Shown here: positions 6,219 to 25,016 of the stretch, piece after piece
Layout: each line of letters starts with the position of its first letter
Numbering within the stretch: the stretch's first letter is position 1
DNA from: a virus
Length of the DNA stretch: 32,754 nucleotides
Strand: one strand, 5' to 3'
Virus record (IMG/VR): IMGVR_UViG_3300006162_000034
Coordinates: 1 to 32,754 of that record
Notes under the pieces: model-generated
What the model saw: the letters and a program-made list of their open reading frames with translations, nothing else
Told to the model about the DNA's origin: nothing
Databases searched by the model: none
Translations under genes and position numbers: made by a program

Positions 6219-7964
6219 TCACCCGCCATATTTCTGTTTGTAGTAGGCAGTCAGGTCAGCATCCGACACGCCGGGGTTGACGGCGCGGGCTTTTTCAAGG
6301 AACTGTTGAAGCGTCGGATGATCGCTGGCGGCTGGCCCAGTAGGGCGCTTCATTCGTTCACGAATGACCGCAATCTGATCGTCAATGGCTTTTTCTCTCC
6401 GCCCGGCATCGGCTTTCAAAAGCGGGATCAATCGTTCTAACTGAGCGGCCGAAATGCTTTCCGGGACAAAAGACTGAATTTCCTGCCGGGCGGCATCGGT
6501 CAGAACACCCGCGAGGTTCGGGTTGGCGATGATCCGGGCCATTTCGTTTGACCACAAATGAAGCTGCGCGTTAAACGCAGTCACGTCCGGGTCGCCATCA
6601 ACCGCGCGCCGCCCAGCCCTTATCCAACGCTCAACCACTGGAACGCCTGTTGTGTCTACGGCTTTGGCCAAATCCAAAAGGACATCGCCGTTGGCCAGTG
6701 CGGTATCAGCGAAAGACGCAATCGCCGTGCGCTGTTTAATAGCCTGCGTCAACGCTTGTTTGTCGGCTGCCTGCCCCGCACGAACGCCAACCAAATCGCC
6801 GCCGGCCATATCGTCTTTCGCCAACCGACGATCCAGCGCTTCTTGAAACGCTTGGCGGTCCGCATTCCCCGCAACGCCATAAGCGAACCGGGGAGGCGGT
6901 CCACCTTTGGCAACTTCGTCCGCCATACGGTCCAAGGTCTCGGGGCGATACGTTGTCGCGGTCGGGACGCCTTTGCTGCGCTTGATCGCCTCTTGAGCGA
7001 CTTGCCCATCCGTCCAGTCGGGGTGCTCTTTGCGAATGTCGGCCTCTATCGCCACGGCATGAGCCGCTGTTGAACCTGCCGGTGGCGCTTTCGCCGCCGG
7101 GGCCGGTTTCAGCGTTCCCGCTCCCAAAATTTCGTTGGCCATTTTTTGCGCAGCAGCAATTTTGTCGGGGTCTCCGGAGCGCAGGTCGAGAACGATCTGC
7201 CCGACACGAATGGCCTGACCATCTGCTACGGCGCGTTGTTCAGGCGTGGCTTTCCGGGCCGCCAAAGTGCTGATATTCCGCGCCGCCCATGATTCCAACC
7301 CGTCAGCCTGCTTCGTCGGATCGTCCGAATGCAAATTGATCGCTATGCCTTCAAGCGTGGTGTTCAGCTTTCTGGTTTCGGTCGCGAGACGGGTGTTTTG
7401 TTGTCCGTTGGCGTTCACGAACCTATGCGCACCGCCCATACCTTCGGTGTCAAGAACAGATGTTAGGGCGGCATTTTTGTAAGCGCGTGCCAGCGTCCGC
7501 AGTTCTGCCTCCCCGGCCCGCGCGTCTGTCGCGTATTTTTGCAGCGCGTTGCGGTAAGCTGTCTGCTCAAACTGAGCCATTTTCAAGCCGTTCTCGCTTT
7601 CCACTTTCCATGTGTCGTAAGCTTTCTTGGCGGCGGCTTCGTCGAGTTGGTGTGTCGAATTCAAAACAGTCCCGGCGGCTTGGATGGCGGCCGTGAGCGG
7701 GCGCCGCGTCAGTAAGGAACCAAAGACCGCCAGCCACATCGCAGGTTGTCCAAACGCCTGAAACACGTCCGTTGTGGCTTCCTGACTGGGCGGGGGGCGC
7801 ATCGCGGGCGGTTGTGCCGCCAATTCGTGGCGGGTCATGTCTTGCCTATCGGCCGCAAGACGGTCGCGCAAACCCGTCACTGCGCCCGCGACAAGTGGGT
7901 TGGCTGGACGTGCCGCTGGCCTTGGGGAAGGGGGCGGGGTTAGATCAATTTGGTCGTCCGCCAT
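6219..7964 (-). CDS. Large putative internal virion protein
   Basis: 581 residues. A Pro-rich N-terminus (LTPPPSPRPAARPANPL) is followed by a hydrophobic Gly/Ala-containing segment near residues 70-100 (QPAMWLAVFGSLLTRRPLTAAIQAAGTV is split around charged residues). A long helical, Ala/Lys/Gln-rich body follows, ending with a sequence suggestive of a C-terminal peptide-binding or core-assembly helix (NPGVSDADLTAYYKQKYGG). No enzymatic motif is recognised. It lies 3 nt from the preceding stop and overlaps or abuts the next start. The position between the Gly-rich 517-residue protein and the 618-residue protein supports an ejection or core role. Confidence 0.6.
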   Translation of the reverse strand: MADDQIDLTPPPSPRPAARPANPLVAGAVTGLRDRLAADRQDMTRHELAAQPPAMRPPPSQEATTDVFQAFGQPAMWLAVFGSLLTRRPLTAAIQAAGTVLNSTHQLDEAAAKKAYDTWKVESENGLKMAQFEQTAYRNALQKYATDARAGEAELRTLARAYKNAALTSVLDTEGMGGAHRFVNANGQQNTRLATETRKLNTTLEGIAINLHSDDPTKQADGLESWAARNISTLAARKATPEQRAVADGQAIRVGQIVLDLRSGDPDKIAAAQKMANEILGAGTLKPAPAAKAPPAGSTAAHAVAIEADIRKEHPDWTDGQVAQEAIKRSKGVPTATTYRPETLDRMADEVAKGGPPPRFAYGVAGNADRQAFQEALDRRLAKDDMAGGDLVGVRAGQAADKQALTQAIKQRTAIASFADTALANGDVLLDLAKAVDTTGVPVVERWIRAGRRAVDGDPDVTAFNAQLHLWSNEMARIIANPNLAGVLTDAARQEIQSFVPESISAAQLERLIPLLKADAGRREKAIDDQIAVIRERMKRPTGPAASDHPTLQQFLEKARAVNPGVSDADLTAYYKQKYGG

Positions 7965-7967
7965 GCG

Positions 7968-9521
7968 TTACCCCGTTGGGTTGCCGGTGACGTTAACGGT
8001 CGGGCGAGCGGCAGCGCCAGCAAGCGTCGCCAAAGAAGCAGCCAATTGGTTGTCTTGGGCAAGCTGCGATTGCATGATTTGACTGTAAAGCTGCGAACCC
8101 AATTGAGCCTCGCTCACCCCTGTTTGCAGCAATTGCGTGGCAATTTGCGCACCCTGGCTGACAAGGGTGTTATCGACGTTGGCCAAATCTTGCGCTTCGG
8201 CGGACGATCCGGTCATGCCGCGAGAAGCGTATTGGCTTCGGATGGCAGCTTTCGCAGCGGCGCCAGCTTGATTGATGCCTTGCTGCACACCTGGGGGGAG
8301 GGTGCCAGACGTGAGGTAGCTCGTAAGCTGTTGCGATTGAGCCGTCAAGTTGTTCGCCGTGTTTGCCACTTGGTTATAACCTGGGATCGCCGAAAGCCCC
8401 TTGTTTGCATTGAGGGCTTGGTAGCCCATCAAAGCGGCGGGCAACAACAAATTGGCGTTGCTGGAGACTGCGTTCCCCAATGTATCCAGCGATGGGTTAT
8501 GAATGAAATTTCCGATGGAGTTTCCACCATTGGGCGTGCCCCCGGCGTTTGGAGCCGCACTTGGCGTGCCAGTCCCGGCTGAGTTGCCAACAACATTTGA
8601 ATCAGCCGGGGGAACATAATCGGGCGGCGTCGGCGGAACCGGAAACGTATTCGGGTCCGTGAAGTTTGCCACCGGGCTTGCAGTCGGAGACGCCGTTGGC
8701 GTGTTTTGGGGCGGTGTCTGGTCAAAACCAGACGTTGGCGTTTGATCAACTGGCGTTGTCGCATTTTGAACCAAAGCCAAGTTGGCCGGCCCGTTCCCCG
8801 CAATGCCCAACTGGTTTGTCAAAGCGGTAGAATCGGCCGAACTCAAAGTTGTTGTCGGGCTTGCCGTAGCAGAGGCGACATTCGTCAACCCACCGGAGAC
8901 ATCGCTTTGCGCAGTTGGGGACGCGGCATTGATCGGGTTGCCGGCCCCATCTACGGCCGAACTAAAATTGAGATTTGTCGTGTCGAGGCCAACGGTCGAA
9001 GGAGCCGCTGTCGCCACAGCAGACGCGCCCGGCCCTGAACTGGACAAGCCAGCACCAGAACCCGCCGATGCGCCGATTGATGTTTCTGGTGTCGTAGTGG
9101 CCCCGCTACCCGACAAAGAACCTGCAAGAGCGCCGCTAGCAGCCCCGGTCAAAGCGCCGGTCAATGGATTGGTGCCGCCCGCCACACCGGAAATGGCGCC
9201 GCCAGCCGCGCCGGCCAAAGCGTCTGCCGGAACAGCACCAATATCTAGAGTGGACCCAATTAACGGACCCGCAAAACCCGTAACCGCGCCGCCCAAAGCT
9301 CCAAGACCAGCATCCTTGAGAATGTTCCCCCCGGTAAGCGCCCCTTCCCCCGCGCCAAGAGCCGCGCCGCCTGCAATACCGCCAAGAGTATCCCCAATCA
9401 GCGTTCCCGTGCTTACCCCAAGAAGCGACGTGCCGGACAAACCAACAGCCTCCGCCGTTGCCGCGCCGGCAGTGGCGAAAAATGTGCCTATGGCATCGCC
9501 AATGGCTGCTACTGCGCCCAT
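7968..9521 (-). CDS. Gly/Ala-rich putative internal virion or membrane-active protein
   Basis: 517 residues starting after an AAGGAG site. Residues 1-160 are a hydrophobic Gly/Ala-rich tract with glycine-zipper spacing (GGIAGGAALGAGEGALTGG, GAASGALAGSLSGSG), as in proteins that insert into or cross membranes. A central Ser/Thr/Pro-rich linker (TPTASPTASPVANF, FPVPPTPPDYVPP) leads to a helical C-terminal region. That region contains SRGMTGSSAEAQDLANVD and a Gln-rich coiled stretch (LYSQIMQSQLAQDNQLAAS), a type common in phage ejection-protein neighbourhoods. No signal peptide is seen. A likely role is a DNA-ejection channel component; this is inference from composition and position. Confidence 0.65.
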   Translation of the reverse strand: MGAVAAIGDAIGTFFATAGAATAEAVGLSGTSLLGVSTGTLIGDTLGGIAGGAALGAGEGALTGGNILKDAGLGALGGAVTGFAGPLIGSTLDIGAVPADALAGAAGGAISGVAGGTNPLTGALTGAASGALAGSLSGSGATTTPETSIGASAGSGAGLSSSGPGASAVATAAPSTVGLDTTNLNFSSAVDGAGNPINAASPTAQSDVSGGLTNVASATASPTTTLSSADSTALTNQLGIAGNGPANLALVQNATTPVDQTPTSGFDQTPPQNTPTASPTASPVANFTDPNTFPVPPTPPDYVPPADSNVVGNSAGTGTPSAAPNAGGTPNGGNSIGNFIHNPSLDTLGNAVSSNANLLLPAALMGYQALNANKGLSAIPGYNQVANTANNLTAQSQQLTSYLTSGTLPPGVQQGINQAGAAAKAAIRSQYASRGMTGSSAEAQDLANVDNTLVSQGAQIATQLLQTGVSEAQLGSQLYSQIMQSQLAQDNQLAASLATLAGAAARPTVNVTGNPTG

Positions 9522-10588
9522 TTCGGCTCCTTTTCTAAGCCGAGGCGAAAAAGCTCGCCATAGGGTTCATAGCCAAGGCGACGATAGAGCGTCCCTAACC
9601 GAGGACCAGAACCACGAATGCCGGCGCGAGCAAAAACCTCCGACACCCCGCGCTCGCGCAAGCGGTCAACCGCGTTGCGTTCTAACTTCATGCCCAAGCC
9701 TGGAAAATCCGGGGAGGCATAAACAGGAAAATGCTGCGCCATCCAGTGATCGCCATCCAGAGACGGGGAAATGATGGACATCAAATACCCGAACATCCGG
9801 CCGTTCATCCGCGCGGTGACAATCTGCATCATGCCCATCTGGTCGATTTTGCGCGCAATGGGGATGTTCTTGGTGCGGAAATCGTCCACGTCCTGTCCGG
9901 TCACAACCATGTGCTGCCGAAACAAGTCCTGAGCATCGCGGAACCAATCGTCAAACCGTTCGACGTTGAATGTCATCCCGTCAATGTCTTTTGCTTTCGG
10001 GGCGAGCGCGGCCATCGACATTTGTCTTGCCGTCCGTGCCAGCTTTGTTAACTGTGGCGAATATGCCACGGCATACCGATGCTGCGCGAGCAGATCACCC
10101 GAAACTTTCGTCTGGTCCCACTCATGCCACCACGCCGTATCGTGCTGGTATGGGAGGCAATGCTCAAACACTTCAGCGCAGACATCCTCGCGCGGCAAAT
10201 CCTCGAACCGGACGGACAGAACGCCGGGAACCCGCCGCTCAATTTGCGCCAACTTCTGGTCCGTGCGACGGATGATCTTGGCCATCGCGTCACGATCAAA
10301 GACAATGCCCGTTGCGGTCAAACTTTGCATAACCGCGTCTGTGTCACGGCGCAGCACGACAACCCGAAGGTTTGGCCATTGGCGCATAGCAAACCGCCAG
10401 AATGGCGCCGCCGCCGTTTCAACAGACCCCGTGTTTGGTTGTTTGAACCAAGAGACAAGATCGTCCTTGGTCCGCATACGCAAAATCTCATCGTGCCCGC
10501 ATCGCCAATCGCGATAGGACAAAAACCGCGACATCCAATATGTCCGCGACCTCGGCGGTCCGAAAACGAGGAACGGCGGCGCTGTCAT
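9509..10588 (-). CDS. Sulfotransferase-like / GNAT acetyltransferase fusion
   Basis: 359 residues; the start overlaps the previous stop as ATGA. The N-terminal half resembles PAPS-dependent sulfotransferases: FLVFGPPRSRTYWMS at residues 6-20 fits the 5'-phosphosulfate loop (GxPRSxT), NLRVVVLRRDTDAVMQSL at 73-90 fits the 3'-phosphate-binding strand and helix, and VLSVRFEDLP at 123-132 fits the conserved strand. The C-terminal part from about 205 looks like a GNAT N-acetyltransferase: MMQIVTARMNGRMFGYLMS strands at 253-271, PVYASPDFPGLGMKLERNAVD at 288-308 as the acetyl-CoA loop and helix (split here around PG), and GTLYRRLGYEPYG at 332-344 as the final strand region. GNAT proteins occur beside tail genes in phages; the fused sulfotransferase-like half is unusual. 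Substrates are unknown. The first Arg loop has R15 where G is usual, so sulfotransferase activity is uncertain. Confidence 0.7.
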   Translation of the reverse strand: MTAPPFLVFGPPRSRTYWMSRFLSYRDWRCGHDEILRMRTKDDLVSWFKQPNTGSVETAAAPFWRFAMRQWPNLRVVVLRRDTDAVMQSLTATGIVFDRDAMAKIIRRTDQKLAQIERRVPGVLSVRFEDLPREDVCAEVFEHCLPYQHDTAWWHEWDQTKVSGDLLAQHRYAVAYSPQLTKLARTARQMSMAALAPKAKDIDGMTFNVERFDDWFRDAQDLFRQHMVVTGQDVDDFRTKNIPIARKIDQMGMMQIVTARMNGRMFGYLMSIISPSLDGDHWMAQHFPVYASPDFPGLGMKLERNAVDRLRERGVSEVFARAGIRGSGPRLGTLYRRLGYEPYGELFRLGLEKEPKWAQ

Positions 10589-10893
10589 GCGACCCCAGGT
10601 GGCGCGGCCGATGGGGTAGGCGATGGCGGCGCGGTCTTGCCACTGGCCGCCCGCAACAAAGCAATGAACCCTTCCTGAATTTGTTTTTCAGCAGCGGCCA
10701 AGCCGGCCTGATCCGTTGTCGGCAGAGATTTCAATTGCTGGATGAAGGCACCCGCCTCTTGTGCGATCTTTTGCGCAACCTTGCCCAGCGTCATGGCCGG
10801 GGTTCCTGGCGCCATACCTGGGGCCGGAGCCGGCATACCTTGCGTCGCGCCCGCCACAACCGGACTTGCCGGCGCCGTCATTGTCTCGCTCAT
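10585..10893 (-). CDS. Small Ala/Pro-rich hypothetical virion protein
   Basis: 102 residues. A Pro/Ala/Gly/Met N-terminal region (PAPAPGMAPGTPAM) leads into a helix of about residues 37-85 (GKVAQKIAQEAGAFIQQLK, GLAAAEKQIQEGFIALLRAA) and a Pro-rich tail. It overlaps its upstream neighbour and the fusion gene by ATGA junctions, so translation is coupled. The layout resembles the 137-residue protein encoded before the scaffold gene (Met/Gly/Pro-rich head plus one helical segment), though the sequences are not clearly homologous. Function not recognised. Confidence 0.65.
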   Translation of the reverse strand: MSETMTAPASPVVAGATQGMPAPAPGMAPGTPAMTLGKVAQKIAQEAGAFIQQLKSLPTTDQAGLAAAEKQIQEGFIALLRAASGKTAPPSPTPSAAPPGVA

Positions 10894-11495: not shown

Positions 11496-12842
11496 CTAGC
11501 CGACCATGGCTTCTATGTCTCTATACGCCAAGCTCAAGCCAGATAGCAAGAAGTCCGCCGAAGTGCTTGTAATGACAGCACCAATAGCAGTGCCGGGGAC
11601 GTTTGCGGTTTGGCCGCCCCAGCTTGGGAGCGTGCCGTTCGGCGCGACAATGTTGGGGTTGGTCAAGTTCTGGGCGGACTGCGACGAAAGTCCAGATGGA
11701 TATGCCCCGGCTTGAGTGTTCCATCCCTCGCCTTGCATTGTCGCGGTCAAAGCCACGCCACTTTGCCCCGGCGATTTGTCGGTTATCCTGTAGAACATGA
11801 GCAAGGTTTGCTTCATGACCATTTCTCGTTCGCCACCATAAAGCTTGGTCGCAATGGTTTTCGCCAACGACGTGGAAGGCTGGGCAAACAGTGGATACAA
11901 GCTGATACCATCCGTGCCCCATGCCGTCATGGCGGAATTTTGTTCCTGCGTTCCAATAAATGTCAGGTTTACCGACTGGGTTGCAACGAAATAATTTTTC
12001 TGATCCCACGCGACCATGACATTCCGAGGCGCCATGGTGTTCGGGTCCACCACGGTCATGAGAAGCAAATAGACCGGGATTGTATGGATGTTCGCGACGG
12101 CCGAGGAGGGCAGCAGCGCGCTTCCGCTGGGAGGGAAAATGGCGTTGTCAAACAAGTCATTGATCTTGCTGGACACCCGCCGCACATCGCCGCCGTATAT
12201 GCCTTGGATGCCGTTCTCATTGGCAAACAAAACAGACTGCCCGAAATCCTGGATGCTGTCGCGCCACGCGGCGCCGATTTGGCTGTTCGTGTTCTGATAA
12301 TTGAACGTGGTAGAAGATGGATTGCCGCTGGTTTGCACGTTGGAAATCACGCTAACCGACGAATCACCCATGGGATACAAGTAGCCGTTGGATTGACGCA
12401 GGGCGGTATAGGTTGCCCTCAAAAACCGGTCGCTTGACGAATACAAAAGGCCGCCCGCCGACGTGGCAAAATTGGTGACAGACCCCGGAGCCGATACAAC
12501 AAACGTCCCGGCGGGGTTGGCCGACCCGTTTTGTGCGCCCGAAGAAATCCACACGCGATTAAGAAAAGTCTCAATTGAAGTCCCGGAAATGCCATACGGC
12601 ATGAGGGACAACGTAGCCGACGCCGCGTTGTTGAACCCCGGCGACACGATCACGGCCGGCACAGATGTATAGCCCGACCCCGGCGCCGTCACCGTAACAG
12701 ACGCAATGGCGCCACCAGACATATTAGCTACGGCTGTAGCCCCTGTTCCTCCGCCACCGGAAAACGAAATAGCTGGGGTTGCAATGAACCCACCGCCACC
12801 GTTAGACACCGCGACGGAAGATACCTGCCCGGCGCCGATCAA
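11496..12842 (-). CDS. Tail-hub/stabilisation protein, C-terminal part (after frameshift)
   Basis: This frame continues the gene that begins at 13816; the apparent TTG start at 12842 has no ribosome binding site and sits inside a repeat. The sequence opens with two more Gly-rich modules (SNGGGGFIATPAISF and APGSGYTSVPAVIV). A beta-rich domain follows with NRVWISSGAQNG, LLYSSSDRFLRATYTALRQ, AWRDSIQDFGQSVLFANE, IYGGDVRRVSSKINDLFD and VMVAWDQKNYF. This is the layout of propeller-like tail-hub proteins that cap or stabilise packaged DNA in short-tailed phages (P22 gp10 or T7 gp12 type). The similarity is recognised by pattern, not alignment. The role would be the part of the tail tube below the adaptor. 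Confidence 0.7.
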   Translation of the reverse strand: MIGAGQVSSVAVSNGGGGFIATPAISFSGGGGTGATAVANMSGGAIASVTVTAPGSGYTSVPAVIVSPGFNNAASATLSLMPYGISGTSIETFLNRVWISSGAQNGSANPAGTFVVSAPGSVTNFATSAGGLLYSSSDRFLRATYTALRQSNGYLYPMGDSSVSVISNVQTSGNPSSTTFNYQNTNSQIGAAWRDSIQDFGQSVLFANENGIQGIYGGDVRRVSSKINDLFDNAIFPPSGSALLPSSAVANIHTIPVYLLLMTVVDPNTMAPRNVMVAWDQKNYFVATQSVNLTFIGTQEQNSAMTAWGTDGISLYPLFAQPSTSLAKTIATKLYGGEREMVMKQTLLMFYRITDKSPGQSGVALTATMQGEGWNTQAGAYPSGLSSQSAQNLTNPNIVAPNGTLPSWGGQTANVPGTAIGAVITSTSADFLLSGLSLAYRDIEAMVG

Positions 12843-13816
12843 GGCAATCGCCGCCGCGCCCCCCCCCCACCGCTGGCGAAAGAGACCGTTGGAGTGCTGG
12901 TGTAGCCCGATCCGTTGGCCGTCAAACCTATCGAAACCACAATCCCGCCGGCAACCGTGAAAACGCCCGCCGCCCCCGAACCGCCACCACCACCGGAAAA
13001 CGCCAGAGCGTGAACGCCGTTCGTATATCCTGTTCCCCCGGCCAAAAGGGTAATGGCTTCGATTGTTGAAGCTGCCAAGGACGCTATCAGCACGGCAGCG
13101 GTATCCCCTCCGCCACCTGAAAAAGCTACCTGCACAACGTCATTTGGCAGATATCCCGTCCCCGCATTGGTAATCTGGTAAGAAACCACCGATCCGTTCG
13201 CTATCGCGGGCGTGAGAGTGACGCCCGAACCGGAACCCCCAAATACGGTGTAGCTTGGGGTGCTTGTGTAGCCCGCTCCCGCGCTGGTCAACTGACCAAT
13301 CTGATAAGGTCCAACGGCGCCAGCGCCATACAGCACGGCCCCATCCCAAATCCAATAATCGTTGGACGTATTGTTGTTCCCAATAAGCAAGTATTGCTCG
13401 CCGCTTTGAACGCCAAACGGCAACTGGCCACCACGATAAAATGTGCTGAATGTGCTGGTAATCGTAGTCACGGCCCCGTTGGATTGAGCCACTTGGACAG
13501 CCGTCCCGTCGCTCAGAAAAATTGCGACGTATTGCGCGGTTCCAATGTTAAACCACGAAAAATACACGATTTTTTTGCCGCCCGTCGCGGTATAGAGCGC
13601 CGTTCCTTTATCCCAAATCGTGCGCAATCCTGCACGCCCCACCAACAAAAAATTTTCAAGCCAAAAAAACTCTTGGTCCGCTATGGCCGTGCGGGCGTCC
13701 TCTTGGTTCATTCCCGAAAACGGAAACGCCGAGTAGAATTTCATATCATTGGGAATGTTCAGCGCTTTTTGTTCGCGCTGCGTCAAATCGGCAAGCCTCC
13801 GATTGCTTTCAGACAT
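12839..13816 (-). CDS. Tail-hub/stabilisation protein, N-terminal part (before frameshift)
   Basis: 325 residues as encoded. Residues 1-180 form a beta domain (FYSAFPFSGMNQEDAR, FFWLENFLLVGRAGLRTIWD, YFSWFNIGTAQYVAIFLSDG, YLLIGNNNTSNDYWIWDG) like the N-terminal region of tail-hub proteins. From about residue 185 four Gly-rich modules follow (SAGAGYTSTPSYTVF, NAGTGYLPNDVVQVAF, AGGTGYTNGVHALAF, ANGSGYTSTPTVSFA). The frame then enters a run of ten G and ends with the off-pattern tail ARRRLP. A -1 shift on the run joins it to the 11496 frame, giving a protein of about 770 residues in which the module series continues without a break. Its start overlaps the adaptor stop by 1 nt. Confidence 0.7.
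   Translation of the reverse strand: MSESNRRLADLTQREQKALNIPNDMKFYSAFPFSGMNQEDARTAIADQEFFWLENFLLVGRAGLRTIWDKGTALYTATGGKKIVYFSWFNIGTAQYVAIFLSDGTAVQVAQSNGAVTTITSTFSTFYRGGQLPFGVQSGEQYLLIGNNNTSNDYWIWDGAVLYGAGAVGPYQIGQLTSAGAGYTSTPSYTVFGGSGSGVTLTPAIANGSVVSYQITNAGTGYLPNDVVQVAFSGGGGDTAAVLIASLAASTIEAITLLAGGTGYTNGVHALAFSGGGGGSGAAGVFTVAGGIVVSIGLTANGSGYTSTPTVSFASGGGGARRRLP
12859..12868 (-). other. Run of ten G in the coding strand at the frame change
   Basis: Ten consecutive C on the plus strand lie exactly where the reading frame of the tail-hub gene must change. The zero frame reads GGT GGG GGG GGG GCG CGG and stops six codons after the run. Re-reading one G gives GGC GCG GCG GCG ATT GCC, which continues the repeat pattern into the downstream frame. 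Eight or eleven G in the DNA would do the same without slippage. Possible explanations are a sequencing miscount, strand-slippage phase variation, or programmed -1 ribosomal frameshifting on a G-run. Confidence 0.9.
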
Positions 13817-14574
13817 TACATCACCGCTGGATATCGTGTCGGCACCTTGCCACGGTCTACCGACCCGCGACGCTCCGTGTTGCTCGCCAGGAAACGGCTA
13901 TACATGATTTCTGCGGACCCGAATGCCCCGCGCGCTTCATACGCTCTGGCCGCAGCATAGTATTTGACGCCGGTTCGGAACGGGTCGGGGATCACGTCGT
14001 AATCGTCGTTGTTATAGATTGGGCCAGCCGTGCAAAATGTATCCCATTCCATCTCGTTTGCCGACTGCGGGACTGGGAACAACCAAACTTCCCCGGCTTC
14101 CCCGTCGTTGTAGACCGAAAACACCACCGGATAGTTGGTCACAAGGATGATGTTGGACCGGCAAAACGCCTGAAATTCCTCGAACGGCATCCAATCCAAA
14201 GAAGGACGCACAGCGCCGCCCCAAGACCCCGAAACCGAAATCACGTCGCAAACGCCGCGCAAACCCCTGAATTGTTGGTTCAGATAGTTGTTGGCATATC
14301 CGATAAAAGGATACCGCTCTTGACCCGGTATGGTGCTGAATGTGCTTCGGGGCGTTGACCCAGGCATAGCACCGCCTGCCACGGCAGAACCGGGCACGGC
14401 CGAAGCCCCAAAGGGAGAAATCCCCACGATCAAACGACGAACGCACCCCGTCAGTTCGGAAGTCGCGGCGCGGGCGTCGTTGATGTATCGGATAAGCTGG
14501 GGTTGCGTGACAAACAACCCCTGCTGATCCCGGATTAAGTCCCTGGTTTCGTCGATGTAGTCTTGCAGAGACAC
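13816..14574 (-). CDS. Head-tail adaptor / connector protein
   Basis: 252 residues. The N-terminus MSLQDYIDETRDLIRDQQ followed by QPQLIRYINDARAATSELTG is the helical opening typical of head-tail connector and tail tubular A-type proteins, which form a ring below the portal. A central beta-containing part (IGYANNYLNQQFRGLRGVCD, SLDWMPFEEFQAFCRSN, VWLFPVPQSANEMEWDTFC) and a final helical hairpin (YYAAARAYEARGAFGSAEIM) also fit. It is placed between the capsid-proximal beta-repeat protein and the tail-hub gene, as expected. Assignment rests on the pattern and gene order. Confidence 0.7.
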   Translation of the reverse strand: MSLQDYIDETRDLIRDQQGLFVTQPQLIRYINDARAATSELTGCVRRLIVGISPFGASAVPGSAVAGGAMPGSTPRSTFSTIPGQERYPFIGYANNYLNQQFRGLRGVCDVISVSGSWGGAVRPSLDWMPFEEFQAFCRSNIILVTNYPVVFSVYNDGEAGEVWLFPVPQSANEMEWDTFCTAGPIYNNDDYDVIPDPFRTGVKYYAAARAYEARGAFGSAEIMYSRFLASNTERRGSVDRGKVPTRYPAVM

Positions 14575-15663: not shown

Positions 15664-16755
15664 TTATACCAGGGGTTGGCCGTTAAAGCCAGTTTGAGAC
15701 GCGATAGCAGGCGGCGGAGACGGCGGGCCAGACCATGCGGGCGATTGAAGCCCGGTAAAGTGAGCGCCCGAGGAAGGTTTCATGCAGCACATATTCAACG
15801 CCGAAACCAAGACGCCGATGCTGGCCAACTGGCCTTGCGGGATCATGGACTCGAACCCGGTGAAGAACATTTGCACCGAGGGGTGCATGAACATCGCAAG
15901 GTAGCGCGAGTTGATCGCATACATTTCGCCCACCGGGCAGAACATATCCGGGAACACCGGCACATCGAGGATGCGAACCGCACGGAACCCGGCGTTGACC
16001 GGGTTATCGCGGCCATACCGCGAACGGGGATCGGTGTTGAACACCTCGGCGCCCATGAAGTCCGCCATCAACGATGCCCAGTTGATTGGGTTCATCACGA
16101 TGAAGTCTGGCGCCTCGCCGCCGGCACCGGTCTGCGTCTTGATGATCGCGTTGGCAACGCCGAGGCGGTTCACGATGGTCGCGCTGTTCGGGTAATACTG
16201 GCCCTGCCAGTAACCGTTGGTGCGCGGGATGCCGCCGTAGGTGGCGACGTTGGTGCCGTTATCGTATGCACCGACCAAAGAATCCAACGCCAGCGGGTTG
16301 GACGTGTAGGAGTAAAGCGAGGTCGCAAGCGCCTGCTTCATCACCACCGCCGCATCGGATGTCACCGCCCGAAGCTTGGGGATGACGACTTCCGAGGACT
16401 GAATGATGCTTTCAAACCCGAAGAAGCCGATGGGCACCATGCCGGCTTTGAGGTTGAACTGCGCGTTGTTCAACGCGACCTGATCCTGCGGGATTTGGAA
16501 GTCGCCGCCGAAACCGCCCCACTGGAACGACGTGAAGGACGAACCCTGCACCGGGAAGGTAATCTGACCGACACCGCCCATCGCGGCCTGCGTGTTGGCC
16601 AGCAAAAGCGAAAGCAGCGGGTGCGACTGGTAGACCTGCACATAGACGCTGGGGATGATGGCCCGGCGCGTGATGTAGCTCAATTGCTGCCCGGTAAGAC
16701 CACCGGGAACAATGCCGCCGCTAAGCGCGCTGGTAAATTGGGTAGAACCTGACAT
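15664..16755 (-). CDS. Major capsid protein
   Basis: 363 residues preceded by AAGGAG. It directly follows a coiled-coil scaffold gene and precedes the head-tail genes. Features that fit an HK97-fold capsid protein are the N-arm, the segment VPIGFFGFESIIQSSEVVIP, and a long helix with LATSLYSYTSNPLALDSLVG. The core includes PDFIVMNPINWASLMADFMG, AVRILDVPVFPDMFCPVGEMYA and YLAMFMHPSVQMFFTGFES, and the C-terminal tail is Pro/Ser-rich. Length and high Gly/Ala content fit. No sequence search was possible, so the exact family is not named. Confidence 0.75.
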   Translation of the reverse strand: MSGSTQFTSALSGGIVPGGLTGQQLSYITRRAIIPSVYVQVYQSHPLLSLLLANTQAAMGGVGQITFPVQGSSFTSFQWGGFGGDFQIPQDQVALNNAQFNLKAGMVPIGFFGFESIIQSSEVVIPKLRAVTSDAAVVMKQALATSLYSYTSNPLALDSLVGAYDNGTNVATYGGIPRTNGYWQGQYYPNSATIVNRLGVANAIIKTQTGAGGEAPDFIVMNPINWASLMADFMGAEVFNTDPRSRYGRDNPVNAGFRAVRILDVPVFPDMFCPVGEMYAINSRYLAMFMHPSVQMFFTGFESMIPQGQLASIGVLVSALNMCCMKPSSGAHFTGLQSPAWSGPPSPPPAIASQTGFNGQPLV

Positions 16756-16768
16756 TTACCGTGGCTCC

Positions 16769-17374
16769 TTATGCCGCATTGCCGAGGCGAAGAAAATCGG
16801 GATCGCGAATGATGCTGCGCAGTTCGTCGTCCTGCCAGCGCGTCGGGTTTTTGTGCAAATTGGCCCACGCCGCGTCGTCGGAAGCCGTGCCGAACGGGTC
16901 AACCGTGGACGGTAGATAGTCATGGCCAGCCATAGGACCGGGACGTGGCAAAGATTCCGACACCCACGCGGCAGCGGCTTCGATATCGGGGTTGTTTTCT
17001 TCCCGCATCCGGTTCATGACCTTTTGCATGGTCTCATCCGAGAACCCGCGCTTGGCTTGAATGGCGGAAAGGCGCCGCGCAAGGTCGGTTTCTTGCGCTT
17101 TTTCCTCGCGCTCGCGATCCTTGGCTTCCCGTTCGGCCCATTTTGCTTCAAGCGCCGCCACACGGGCGCGCTCTTTTTCAAGCTCAGCCATGACAGGCGT
17201 CAAAACCGCTTCGCGCTGCCGGCGAAGGGGGAATTCCGCCGATGGGTTCAACGTCTCAACCAGCTTTTCAGCTTGCTCCGCCGTCCGGGGATCGCCCAAC
17301 ATGCGTTCAAGCAGGTTGGCGCCGTTTTGAACCAGCGTCAGTTGGCCAGAATCAACTTGCACAACGCCCGGCAT
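16769..17374 (-). CDS. Capsid scaffolding protein
   Basis: 201 residues, highly charged. A coiled coil covers about residues 55-110 (AELEKERARVAALEAKWAER and the following KDREREEK region). A C-terminal helical part follows (ETMQKVMNRMREENN, WQDDELRSIIRDPDFLRLG). A coiled, charged protein of this length directly upstream of the capsid gene is the usual form of a phage scaffold, which shapes the procapsid and leaves before DNA packaging. No protease motif is visible, so removal may be by exit rather than cleavage. Confidence 0.75.
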   Translation of the reverse strand: MPGVVQVDSGQLTLVQNGANLLERMLGDPRTAEQAEKLVETLNPSAEFPLRRQREAVLTPVMAELEKERARVAALEAKWAEREAKDREREEKAQETDLARRLSAIQAKRGFSDETMQKVMNRMREENNPDIEAAAAWVSESLPRPGPMAGHDYLPSTVDPFGTASDDAAWANLHKNPTRWQDDELRSIIRDPDFLRLGNAA

Positions 17375-20960: not shown

Positions 20961-21165
20961 TTTGGCTTCTCCATGCCATGATCGCGGCCACTGCCGCGTT
21001 CAGTGTTTCGGGTAAGGGTTCGTCCGATATCACGAAAATCATCTCAGGGTCTTCCACGATTTGGACAAACGCCAATCGCAAAGTGGGATGCAGTTTCATG
21101 CGGCGGGCGGGCTTTGCGGCCCATGTAGGGTGGATTTCCAAGCACGCCAGACGATCTATCGTCAC
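20944..21165 (-). CDS. Small hypothetical protein after terminase
   Basis: 73 residues starting MTIDRLACLEIHPTWAAKPA, with the start overlapping the terminase stop as ATGA. It looks like a small alpha/beta protein (LRLAFVQIVEDPEMIFVISD, then ETLNAAVAAIMAWRS). No known motif. The coupled start, and the overlap with the next gene, argue that it is a real gene. Possible packaging accessory, but this is position only. Confidence 0.6.
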   Translation of the reverse strand: MTIDRLACLEIHPTWAAKPARRMKLHPTLRLAFVQIVEDPEMIFVISDEPLPETLNAAVAAIMAWRSQNEAPG

Positions 21166-23072
21166 ATCAACCCCCGCTGTTCAAAGAAGGTCCGCGCTGG
21201 CGGAAGGTCCGCATCGTCATCGGAGGACCGCATAATGCTAAAAATCCGCCGATTGAGCGTTGAAGCTATCGGAGAGATCGGCGCGGTGGTTGCTCCCTTA
21301 CCCCCGTCCCAGCTTAAACCGTGAGCAATCAGCCCGGCTCGCAAGTTCTCGATCCATGTGATATTGGCCAAGGCCGTGGCGAAGGTCCGGTCATCCCGGT
21401 TGTGGCCCTGTGCTGCGGCACCAATGTCTGAATTGTCCTGCCGAACGGTGGACATCTCGTCCAAAAGCGGAACCGACCGAAGTTCCAGAAGGTTCATCAC
21501 CCAAGAATCCCGCATCATGTTCATCATGCGGAATTTCAGGTCGCGGCCGATCTTGCTGTTATACATGTAGCCGGGACCGGGGCTGTCGATCCGACGATAC
21601 ATATACCAGTTGGCCGCGTTCAAGAAATCGTTGTCGTCGCCACCAATGGCAAGCGCTTTCACCCGGCCCTGATAAAGCTCCGACCGCATCATGAGGCGCA
21701 AATCTTCAAACGCCTGCATGACGGCCGATCCAATCCCACCGGTCATGTCAATGTTGATGCGGCAGTTCGCGTATTTCCCTGCCAGATACGCCGTCACCCA
21801 CGCACAATGCCGCGTTTCGGGGATGCTATCGGCCCATTCCGCGACTTGCACCAGCTTATCGGCATAACACCGGTAAACCTCCACCGCGTGATTGTTCGAT
21901 GTCTCGCTTCTTCCCCCGGCCGGGTCCACCCCTATAACATAATAGCCGTCTGGGTGCGGTTGCTCCCACACCCTGAGCTTAATCATGTCCGTGGGGATGT
22001 CTTCGGTAATCTCCTCCACCTTGGACATATGGTATTCTTCGCCGAGATAAAGACTGTATGCCTTGTAACCGTATCCACCTTCCTCCACCGACGCCGGTTC
22101 GGCCGAGGTAATCTGCTCTCGAACCTTGGCGACAAGCCGGGCTTGGAAAAACGACACGCCGGATTGAATGAACGCCTGAGCCGCGAACCACGGCTGGTTC
22201 TGATCCATCTCATCTCCGGATGCGTTAGGCTGCGTTAACTGCCAACGATACCAAGCCAGTTGGCTCGCATCTATCTCAAACCCGTATTCATCCCGCACCC
22301 GGCAAATCAGTTCGTTCTCTTGCGGGTTGGGCGGATGCAAACCGAACGCCTCAAAACGACGGTCTGTTATCTTGATCCGCTGTAGATCGTGCGACCACCA
22401 TCCGACAAAAATGCACTTGGACGTAAATTCGTCCGCGACCGCCGCTTCCCATATGTCTTTCCAATGGTTCGGACCGTGCGCCGTACTCTCGAAAATATAG
22501 AGCGCGCGAGGGTTATCCGGGGCCATGGTGTGACGGAAAGACGATATGCCTTCCTCCTTGCCGTAGTTGGCCACCTCGGTCAGGTGCCCCAACATATATC
22601 CCTCACCCTCGGCCCAAGCTACTTTGGACCGGCCGGCTGTCAGCAAATCAAGGCGCGAACCATTGGAAAATGTGAGCGAGAATTTATTGCGCTTTAAGGT
22701 CTTGAACCCCTTGCCCATGAATGCCTGCAACGAGGCAAGGTAGGATTCCAGCGTGCCTCGGTTTTTGGCCGTGTTTTTGTCGGTGTCGGAAACCACGCAC
22801 CCAATGGTGTTGGGATGCAACGCCAACCAAAACAGGACAATTGCCAGCGTGATGGTGGTCACGCCCAACTGCCGGGATTTCAAAATGTAGAAAGTGTGGA
22901 TATCGTGTTCTAGGCCATCGACAATGGCCTCCATAACTCGCTTCTGCGAGGTCCACAGTTTGAGTTCCATCCCTTTGCCATCGGGATCGGACGCGGCGTG
23001 CTTGCTCTGAATCCGCAGGTTGGCAATGTATTTGCGGAAAAGCGGAACCCAATGCTGCTTATTTGTTGTCAT
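21162..23072 (-). CDS. terL: Terminase large subunit (DNA packaging ATPase/nuclease)
   Basis: 636 residues. The ATPase half has the variant Walker A KSRQLGVTT at 65-73, Walker B and catalytic Glu in MLGHLTEVANY at 160-170, and coupling motif FESTAHG at 194-200. The nuclease half has YYVIGVDPAGG at 377-387 (D383), NIDMTGGIG at 440-448 (D442) and the acidic NRDDRTFATALA at 558-569, the expected three acidic sites of an RNase H-like fold. It cuts concatemeric DNA and drives it into the procapsid through the portal. No typical small subunit is seen next to it; the HTH protein at 25.3-25.5 kb is a possible substitute. It overlaps its upstream gene by 14 nt and the next one by 4 nt. Confidence 0.92.
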   Translation of the reverse strand: MTTNKQHWVPLFRKYIANLRIQSKHAASDPDGKGMELKLWTSQKRVMEAIVDGLEHDIHTFYILKSRQLGVTTITLAIVLFWLALHPNTIGCVVSDTDKNTAKNRGTLESYLASLQAFMGKGFKTLKRNKFSLTFSNGSRLDLLTAGRSKVAWAEGEGYMLGHLTEVANYGKEEGISSFRHTMAPDNPRALYIFESTAHGPNHWKDIWEAAVADEFTSKCIFVGWWSHDLQRIKITDRRFEAFGLHPPNPQENELICRVRDEYGFEIDASQLAWYRWQLTQPNASGDEMDQNQPWFAAQAFIQSGVSFFQARLVAKVREQITSAEPASVEEGGYGYKAYSLYLGEEYHMSKVEEITEDIPTDMIKLRVWEQPHPDGYYVIGVDPAGGRSETSNNHAVEVYRCYADKLVQVAEWADSIPETRHCAWVTAYLAGKYANCRINIDMTGGIGSAVMQAFEDLRLMMRSELYQGRVKALAIGGDDNDFLNAANWYMYRRIDSPGPGYMYNSKIGRDLKFRMMNMMRDSWVMNLLELRSVPLLDEMSTVRQDNSDIGAAAQGHNRDDRTFATALANITWIENLRAGLIAHGLSWDGGKGATTAPISPIASTLNRRIFSIMRSSDDDADLPPARTFFEQRGLM

Positions 23073-23619
23073 GGGCCGCCATCACCATTTCGGTCAAAAT
23101 TTCATTTATTGGCCCGGCAACTTGCGCGTCTCTGGCAATTCCCCATTGCGCCCATAAAGCGGGGTCTTTCGCGGCTGCACGCTGATTTCCTGCGGCATAC
23201 CTCGCCGCCGCCCACATGGCATGCCTTGCCGCCCAAACTACATTATCCTCGGCGGCAGTAGCCCCCAAATGCATCAAAGCATTTAAGGTGTGCTTGTTTG
23301 CGTCGCGTCGTAAATTTTCATCGCCATTTTTAATGTATTCTTCAACAACGTCGGGCACACACCATAAATGGATAACGTCCAAGGCGCACAATCTGGCAAA
23401 TTTTCTCAAAATTAAATTTGCCTCTAGACTCCATAAAAGTTCAGTTTCTGTGCTTACATACACATTGTTGCCGCCATCAAGAACTTCCCCTTTTATTTTG
23501 ACGCAAAGAAGCGTGTCGCCAGTTGCCCACTCAAGAGCTTCCGTTATGCGCTGTGATCCGGCTAAATTTTTTGAAACCGGGGGGAAATCATCGCGGTTTA
23601 TGAAATTCCAAGCGATCAC
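23059..23619 (-). CDS. Hypothetical helical protein with WAA repeats
   Basis: 186 residues from a GTG that overlaps the previous stop as GTGA; the longer frame to 23733 only shadows the glycosyltransferase gene. A helical C-terminal region has the spaced Ala/Trp pattern VVWAARHAMWAAARYAAGNQ and DPALWAQWGIARDAQ, seen in short repeats of uncharacterised phage and bacterial proteins. The N-terminal half (ITEALEWATGDTLLCVKIKG, ILRKFARLCALDVIHLW) looks helical as well. Its plus-strand DNA is more AT-rich (many AAATTT-type stretches) than the flanking genes, which suggests a separate origin. Function unknown. Confidence 0.6.
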   Translation of the reverse strand: MIAWNFINRDDFPPVSKNLAGSQRITEALEWATGDTLLCVKIKGEVLDGGNNVYVSTETELLWSLEANLILRKFARLCALDVIHLWCVPDVVEEYIKNGDENLRRDANKHTLNALMHLGATAAEDNVVWAARHAMWAAARYAAGNQRAAAKDPALWAQWGIARDAQVAGPINEILTEMVMAAHDNK

Positions 23620-25016
23620 GCGCCCAAGTCCTTCACGACGGCCGCGATGGCCGGCTCCCACCATCCCAACCGAGGCTGGCGGTAAATCTTCATGGACGGA
23701 TACCACACCGTATCCGACCCCTTCATGCCCCACCGCCAGCAGGCGTCATAGCGGGACAGCATGAGGGTCGGGACGCCAAGGGAGGCCGCGAGGTGGCAGA
23801 TGGCGGTGTCTACGGTGACCACGCGGTCAAGTTTGGATATGATGTCGGCGGTGTCCTGCCAGTCGTTGACCCCAACGAACCGCAATTCATCGCGCTGCAA
23901 TATGACGTGGTTCCCGCCCGCGCCCATGACCGACTGTATGATCGGGGCGAACCTTCGCTCGTCTAAAGATCGCCGTTGATCCGTTGCGTGCGCTGCTGGG
24001 TCTTCTGGCCTCGGGCCACCGGACCAACAAATTCCGGTTGTTCTAGGCGGGACAAATCGGTCCATGTTCACCGCATATTTCAGCGGCGGCGGCACCGTCT
24101 CCGGCGTCGTGCCGAATAGCAACGGCAGGCTCATGAGACTGGTCTGAACGTCAAACTCCGGCACAACGTCCCGGCGATGCACGATGATCTTGGCTGGCAG
24201 ACATTGGAACAGCCGCTCCAACTCCGCTTGCGTCTCGACCACCACCGAAGCAGCAATCTCCGCAACCAACGGGACATACCGGGCAAACTGAATGGAATCC
24301 CCGAACCCTTGCTCAGACCGCAGCAACACCCGCTTGCCACGCAACCCATCCAAGTCACCCGTGTAAAGCGGAGCGCCTTTGTATTGCCACGGCGATACCG
24401 GGGAGGGAATGTGCCACCGGGCCTCGAACTTGGGCCATCCCTCCGCCCACCGCCCCATCCGCAGCAATGTGAACGCCTCGCCGGCTTGGGCATGAGCATA
24501 GCCCGGCTGTAATTCCTGCGCCCGCCGATAATGATGAAGCGCCCCTTCTTCCTCGCCCAGATAAGAGCAAAGCGTCGCCATGCCGTGATGGCATTCCGGG
24601 TTGTTCGGATCAATCGTCACCGCCCGTTCAAGGCAGGCAAACCCTTCCGGGTGCTCTTGGCGCATCATGTAACACGCGCCCAGCTTGTGCCACGCCGAAC
24701 CGATGGAATAGTCCCGCCGGATCACATCGCGAAACGCCTCGGCCGACGCAAGGAAATCCCCTTTCTCAAACAAAGCCATGCCGTGGTTCATGTGCAGCAT
24801 GATGTTCTCGGGGTCCAAGGCAAGCGCCCGCTCAAACAACTCCGACGCTTCGGTCCAATCGTGCCGACGCATCGCAATCGCGCCCCGCGTCGCCAGACAC
24901 AACGAAGGCTCATCCCCGGCAACCTCGGCCTCAATCACATGGCCAAGCGCCGCTTCCAAATCACCAAGGTTAACTTGATGCAGCGCAGCATAAAGGGTGG
25001 GGGAAAGCGTGGTCAT
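23616..25016 (-). CDS. TPR protein fused to a GT-B glycosyltransferase-like domain
   Basis: 466 residues. Residues 5-200 hold about five tetratricopeptide repeats, with signatures such as ASELFERALALDPENIMLHM, AWHKLGACYMMRQ and GALHHYRRAQELQPGYAHAQ. Residues 205-466 resemble the GT9/heptosyltransferase-like domain often joined to TPRs in bacteria: GKRVLLRSEQGFGDSIQFAR with GFGD at 237-240, TGICWSGG at 327-334, RRSLDERRFAPII at 348-360, VVTVDTAICHLAASLGVPT at 399-417 (D403) and the end VWYPSMKIYRQ at 437-447. It lies in the packaging operon, coupled to the next gene. The sugar donor and acceptor are unknown. Possible roles are glycosylation of host surface glycans, virion protein or DNA. Confidence 0.8.
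   Translation of the reverse strand: MTTLSPTLYAALHQVNLGDLEAALGHVIEAEVAGDEPSLCLATRGAIAMRRHDWTEASELFERALALDPENIMLHMNHGMALFEKGDFLASAEAFRDVIRRDYSIGSAWHKLGACYMMRQEHPEGFACLERAVTIDPNNPECHHGMATLCSYLGEEEGALHHYRRAQELQPGYAHAQAGEAFTLLRMGRWAEGWPKFEARWHIPSPVSPWQYKGAPLYTGDLDGLRGKRVLLRSEQGFGDSIQFARYVPLVAEIAASVVVETQAELERLFQCLPAKIIVHRRDVVPEFDVQTSLMSLPLLFGTTPETVPPPLKYAVNMDRFVPPRTTGICWSGGPRPEDPAAHATDQRRSLDERRFAPIIQSVMGAGGNHVILQRDELRFVGVNDWQDTADIISKLDRVVTVDTAICHLAASLGVPTLMLSRYDACWRWGMKGSDTVWYPSMKIYRQPRLGWWEPAIAAVVKDLGA

Follow-up and report, generated by a model that had tools for sequence, protein, structure and literature searches.

A phage gene family that fuses a sulfotransferase-like domain to a GNAT domain directly before DNA-ejection genes

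Analysis of a 32,754-base sequence comprising an entire virus record (hereafter the window) showed that a gene in its structural operon joins a sulfotransferase-like domain to a GNAT domain. The gene is not the one-off that an earlier reading implied, but belongs to a widespread unannotated family of 130 distinct fused proteins. Its slot lies directly upstream of a gene for a Gly/Ala-rich DNA-ejection protein, usually within a few bases, and many uncharacterised phages of short-tailed type keep this position, across unrelated backbones in which one-domain, split and fused versions are interchangeable. We propose, with about even confidence, that the product is a bifunctional sulfotransferase and GNAT enzyme that modifies the co-produced ejection protein or a nearby virion part during assembly.

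Two domains in one reading frame

The fusion gene (9509..10588, minus strand) encodes a 359-aa protein (P0001), defined by its ORF and translation, its homologues and an AF2 model of the full-length protein (pLDDT 90.4, pTM 0.80). The ORF boundaries given in the first-pass annotation were borne out exactly once the strand was corrected to minus, and its placement of the gene in a phage structural operon was also correct, as family matches identified terminase, capsid and adaptor genes on the same strand. Residues 1-200 (9989..10588, minus strand) form the sulfotransferase-like domain, assigned from a separate AF2 model with Foldseek and from a match to phrog_10855 (5.4e-8), and residues 203-359 (9512..9982, minus strand) form the GNAT domain, assigned from Foldseek, from hhalign to the PfAn1 acetyltransferase and from phrog_1249. 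Within these limits, the PHROGs matches cover residues 6-146 for phrog_10855 ('hydrolase', 5e-8) and residues 246-349 for phrog_1249 ('acetyltransferase', 4e-5).

The claim that a PAPS-type transferase is fused to the GNAT had been made to depend beforehand on whether residues 1-200 are a plain P-loop kinase or lack likeness to sulfotransferases. When these residues were modeled alone (AF2, 60 sequences; pLDDT 92.1, pTM 0.88), Foldseek PDB ranks 1-18 were all sulfotransferases, the best match being human TPST1 bound to PAP and peptide (5wrj, E 5.7e-6, TMq 0.61), and the first kinase was gluconate kinase at rank 19 (E 5e-4), so the fusion claim survives. A reading of the protein as a GNAT joined to an ordinary P-loop kinase or hydrolase would match the annotation of named relatives as 'putative nucleotide triphosphate hydrolase' and the gluconate and shikimate kinases found in the fold search from rank 19 on. 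However, the loop holds no Walker A motif (G-x4-G-K-[ST]), Lys occurring just once, at position 13 of a single sequence, and with sulfotransferases filling ranks 1-18 and R-x7-S retained, we rejected this reading as exceedingly improbable. The resemblance also exceeds chance because it recurs in 130 distinct fused homologues with near-invariant motifs and low dN/dS; the protein is neither a P-loop kinase nor a chance likeness. A match to a de novo helix bundle (9u78) was set aside as a repeat artefact.

All three sequence elements originally picked out in the N-terminal half are present: the GPPRSRT loop at residues 10-16, the RxD/SL element as R81-D-T-D-A-V-M-Q-S89-L and the FEDL strand at residues 128-131. 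The loop, which extends as GPPRSRTYW (residues 10-18; 10535..10561, minus strand), is of the 5'-phosphosulfate type, and the R-x7-S motif (residues 81-89; 10322..10348, minus strand) is of the 3'-phosphate type. In the sulfotransferase family, P-R-S-x-T serves as the 5'-phosphosulfate loop and R-x7-S as the 3'-phosphate element, and the spacing of the latter here matches that of known enzymes. Across ~160 distinct and highly diverged relatives, P12-R13-S14-R15, W18, H32, R81 and S89 are near-invariant (R81 in all 161 distinct sequences and S89 in 160 of them), while residue 16 is T in the window and S in 35 fused sequences. The best candidates for a catalytic base, judged from conservation, are H32 (10493..10495, minus strand), which is H in 159/160 distinct sequences, and E57 (10418..10420, minus strand), a second putative catalytic or binding residue that is E in 124/124 fused and 19/21 split sequences and is D or S in some stand-alone sulfotransferase-like sequences.

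The fourth loop position is Gly in most (classical) sulfotransferases. Against the 5'-phosphosulfate consensus P-[KR]-[ST]-G-[TS], the family has P-R-S-R-[TS], with a near-invariant Arg at the Gly position, and therefore represents a divergent sulfotransferase subfamily. Sequence similarity to characterised sulfotransferases is weak (SgdX2, 8e-4), and the window protein falls below the Pfam cut-offs for Sulfotransfer_4 (19.3 versus 22.8, E 0.0011) and Sulfotransfer_3 (17.5 versus 27, E 0.0054), cut-offs that are recognition thresholds and not a biochemical definition of a sulfotransferase. Among 56 family members, 31 matched Sulfotransfer_3 at E<=0.01 (best 2.8e-7) and all matched phrog_10855 (best 4.7e-17).

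The domain shares with PAPS-dependent sulfotransferases (nearest solved fold TPST1/2, 5wrj and 3ap3; Pfam Sulfotransfer_3/_4) its fold (TMq ~0.61), the P-R-S-x-T loop, R-x7-S and a late 'F/Y-x-D-L' strand, but it differs from known sulfotransferases in being shorter (~160-200 aa), in its loop Arg and sub-threshold Pfam scores, and in being GNAT-linked, phage-borne and of predicted activity. The TPST likeness is one of fold only, and tyrosine sulfation by the fusion is putative; we predict that the N-terminal half is a PAPS-dependent sulfotransferase. In Pseudomonas and Stenotrophomonas phages, among them phiH1 and PaMx28, the phrog_10855 proteins homologous to this half carry the annotation NTP hydrolase or sulfotransferase-like. 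Unlike the fusion, the phiH1 gene stands alone near replication genes and not beside ejection genes.

The C-terminal half, described earlier as GNAT-like from about residue 205, was confirmed by Foldseek and hhalign as a GNAT domain starting at ~residue 203. Foldseek with the full-length model returned many GNATs (2r7h at E 1.5e-7, AAC(3) enzymes and others), and hhalign of a 56-sequence profile against the stand-alone acetyltransferase of Pseudomonas phage PfAn1 gave a probability of 97.1 (E 5e-11). Stand-alone GNAT relatives that occupy this slot score above the Acetyltransf_1 cut-off of Pfam (1.4e-10 for L042). The CoA-pyrophosphate loop DFPGLGMKL (residues 294-302; 9683..9709, minus strand) keeps the G-x-G of motif A, [QR]-x-x-G-x-[GA], with G299 in 120/120 and G297 in 112 of the fused sequences tallied, but has E, D or A at the Q/R position; cofactor binding is therefore likely, not certain. 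The position of the GNAT Tyr acid is Y in 103 of ~118 fused sequences and mostly F or L in split and GNAT-only versions. This half is predicted to be an acetyl-CoA-dependent GNAT acyltransferase. It is homologous to the phrog_1249 phage GNATs (PfAn1, Zobellviridae, SIO1 pc40), which sit in the same slot before ejection genes but stand alone, without a sulfotransferase domain.

Spread and descent of the family

The family was reached by anchoring on the capsid protein, followed by profile building and profile scans; direct tblastn and peptide-pattern scans with the single window protein found no relatives, and a scan anchored on TerL found nothing. The 205 fused loci, mostly from IMG/VR, reduce to 130 distinct sequences and 85 clusters at 90% identity, and distinct sequences were counted because one contig can recur in several scans. 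Fused genes were also found in proteobacterial genomes (including Azospirillum rugosum, Sphingomonas, Beijerinckiaceae, Rhizobiales and Nevskia). Both halves are under purifying selection, with a median dN/dS of 0.15 for the N-terminal half (9 pairs) and 0.10 for the C-terminal half (21 pairs).

In the sulfotransferase tree, 78 fused sequences, including the window, form one group (SH-aLRT 96), and two smaller fused groups are placed among split genes. The starred branches of this tree force at least two changes, indicating that fusion or fission happened more than once. The window and the fused loci L004 and L016, which belong to one capsid clade, are not grouped together, which points to module exchange between phages.

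One slot with interchangeable content

In the window, the fusion gene overlaps by 13 nt the gene downstream (7968..9521, minus strand), which encodes a 517-aa Gly/Ala-rich protein that starts MGAVAAIG and is presumed from position and composition to be a DNA-ejection (internal virion) protein. This protein itself has no informative match in Pfam or PHROGs; its positional counterparts in related loci have matches to phrog_598 'DNA ejection' and weak ones to phrog_418 'internal virion protein'. The gene beyond it (6219..7964, minus strand) encodes 581 aa, presumed from gene order and cluster membership to be a further internal virion protein; it has no family match, and shares a cluster (cluster 32) with the second protein downstream of the fusion in L076 and in L129, on the contigs of L004 and L016 respectively. 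Directly upstream, a 102-aa Pro/Ala-rich protein from the ORF list (10585..10893, minus strand), also without an informative match in Pfam or PHROGs, overlaps the fusion start by 4 nt.

Further upstream on the minus strand lie genes for a tail protein (11496..13816, from matches to L016), an SU10-type adaptor (13816..14574; PF24175, 1.2e-9), the major capsid protein (15664..16755; phrog_9953, 1.7e-19) and the terminase large subunit (21162..23072; phrog_2, 5.5e-15, and tblastn to annotated terminases). The tail protein is present as two ORFs (12839-13816, 325 aa, and 11496-12842, 448 aa) corresponding to successive parts of a single 768-aa ORF in L016, the split near 12840 being a frameshift or a sequencing or assembly indel. 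Adjoining the terminase gene, 23616-25016 (minus strand) encodes a 466-aa TPR-repeat protein with a C-terminal glycosyltransferase-9-like stretch.

The arrangement around the fusion gene recurs across the family, with the next ORF no more than 60 nt away in 79/84 fused cluster representatives, mostly at 0-4 nt. Every locus of the capsid (MCP) clade in which the slot was recognised holds a GNAT there, either alone (L027, L030, L031, L042, L043, L046), as a gene adjacent to and following a sulfotransferase gene (L006, L040, L041, L044) or fused (the window, L004, L016); six other loci of the clade (L005, L009, L010, L012, L014, L021) are uninformative, with tail-fibre genes pushing the slot past the fetched flank. 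The wider set contains 32 split loci, all with sulfotransferase then GNAT on the same strand and a gap of -10 to +45 nt. A sulfotransferase-only gene lies directly before an ejection-type gene in L162, L208, L213, L221, L224 and L135; most other sulfotransferase-only loci are cut by contig ends or come from the distant group of L136-L138, L143 and L144.

The same slot is found on backbones of different types. On a P22-like backbone the order is phrog_578, fusion and phrog_598 'DNA ejection', on a T7-like backbone (Azospirillum) it is phrog_394, phrog_376, fusion, a weak phrog_418 match and a transglycosylase protein, and the window backbone is of the SU10-adaptor type. Among named phages, a stand-alone GNAT fills the slot in PfAn1, Vibrio 1.235.O, 1.209.O and GP100. 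In L006, a 153-aa protein that is cupin-like by eye (16835-17296) is encoded between the GNAT gene and the ejection gene, and a different small gene occupies that place in VvAW1 (PHA00672 'tail fiber' type), BA3, DSL-LC05 and 1.211.A.

The genes for T7 gp13 (PF11090) and P22 gp14 (DUF2824, phrog_651) also occupy the slot, immediately preceding the first ejection gene, and their products lack a sulfotransferase domain. A GNAT in this slot has been equated with T7 gp13 (PMC6775973). Comparison by hhalign of the GNAT half with single T7 gp13 and P22 gp14 sequences, which is an insensitive search, found no similarity, and we therefore do not claim homology. A gp14-like gene is present alongside the fusion in L101 (phrog_651 match) and, by eye, in L109, so the fusion is not a simple replacement for it. 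Small genes upstream of ejection genes in L309 (2448-2819; Xanthomonas phage PBR31 orf030), L308 (2178-2543) and L140 (8911-9366; P22 gp14) look by eye like degenerate GNATs, suggesting that GNAT-like genes may very commonly occupy this slot in podoviruses.

The shared slot and the published link to T7 gp13, whose family is named 'probable scaffold protein' in Pfam, are what would be expected if the fusion were an assembly chaperone built from two enzyme folds, binding the ejection protein without catalysis, as has been proposed for T7 gp13, and keeping its cofactor pockets only for stability. The incomplete retention of the GNAT catalytic Tyr and Q/R fits this reading as well. However, R81, S89, H32 and the GNAT G-x-G hardly vary even between highly diverged sequences, a degree of conservation for which a pure chaperone would have no need. 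With the hhalign result also counting against it, we consider a chaperone unlikely.

Possible clients and activities

Our preferred reading is that a two-domain cytoplasmic enzyme is expressed from the late (morphogenesis) operon and would be co-produced with the Gly/Ala-rich DNA-ejection protein of the next gene downstream. Its most likely target would be that ejection protein, or another internal-virion or tail-tip protein, which would be sulfated and acylated before packaging, and the modification may tune the target's folding, membrane insertion or incorporation. The conserved cofactor residues argue for catalysis, and co-translation with the ejection protein across otherwise different genomes points to this protein, or an assembly neighbour, as the client. 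We counted against this explanation the weak sequence similarity, the loop Arg, the GNAT Q/R and Tyr changes, the co-occurrence of gp14-like genes and the downstream protein of the window, with its lack of an informative family match.

The first-pass annotation had suggested that the protein places two different groups on a virion or host glycan, for which we found no direct support. The position always before an ejection gene favours a virion protein over a glycan, and the closest folds are protein-tyrosine sulfotransferases, neither of which proves the substrate. An enzyme directed at the host, sulfating and/or acetylating a surface glycan, lipid or small molecule for receptor masking, superinfection exclusion or as a metabolic AMG, would agree with the many acceptors used by sulfotransferases, with the small-molecule acetyltransferases among the best GNAT PDB matches and with the alphaproteobacterial hosts among the bacterial-genome matches. 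Phage sulfotransferases have also been listed as metabolic genes of unclear role (PMC10580990). The gene, however, is not among host-conversion or early genes but lies within the late structural operon, tightly coupled to the ejection gene across unrelated backbones, making a host-directed role rather improbable.

A special case of ejection-protein modification is that the GNAT half acylates the Gly exposed at the N-terminus once Met is removed, with the sulfotransferase half acting on the same protein. The GNAT fold includes N-terminal acetyl- and myristoyl-transferases, and weak matches to NAA20/NAA30 were seen. A Met-Gly start occurs in 70/79 ejection proteins beside a fused gene versus 12/288 other genes in these loci, and within one ejection family in 48/56 fused versus 1/31 non-fused cases. 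Correction for relatedness, however, leaves 4 independent pairs (about 3 agree, 0 disagree, p 0.25), so the association, no longer significant, gives no more than a hint of an N-terminal target. The Gly is absent in eight fused phages of that ejection family, and Met-Gly also accompanies split or GNAT-only genes in another ejection family; we regard this version as very unlikely.

The transient channel through which phage DNA crosses the envelope is formed by ejection (internal virion) proteins, and the function of the small gene before them (T7 gp13, P22 gp14, phage GNATs) is unsettled. That unrelated backbones fill this slot with transferase modules able to replace one another, as single genes, as neighbours or as a fusion, ties two activities to one process and yields a concrete prediction of modified ejection or tail proteins, by which modification of the DNA-injection machinery becomes testable. 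Both GNATs encoded next to ejection genes and phage proteins resembling sulfotransferases are already known, and a search of mainly open-access literature found no description of a fused phage sulfotransferase/GNAT family or of the interchangeable slot. It is conceivable, if speculative, that in many Proteobacteria phages a dedicated two-activity enzyme sulfates and acylates the phage's own DNA-ejection proteins as virions assemble, which would be an undescribed step of ejectosome maturation and make the sulfotransferase the first phage enzyme known to sulfate a virion protein. A few genes ahead of the ejection module in phage CBW1004C-Prop1 is another type of sulfotransferase gene, annotated 'sulfotransferase family 2' (L311:47-577). 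A prophage-type fusion locus in cultured Azospirillum rugosum (NZ_JAGINP010000001.1, ~474,995-476,059) provides an experimental entry point.
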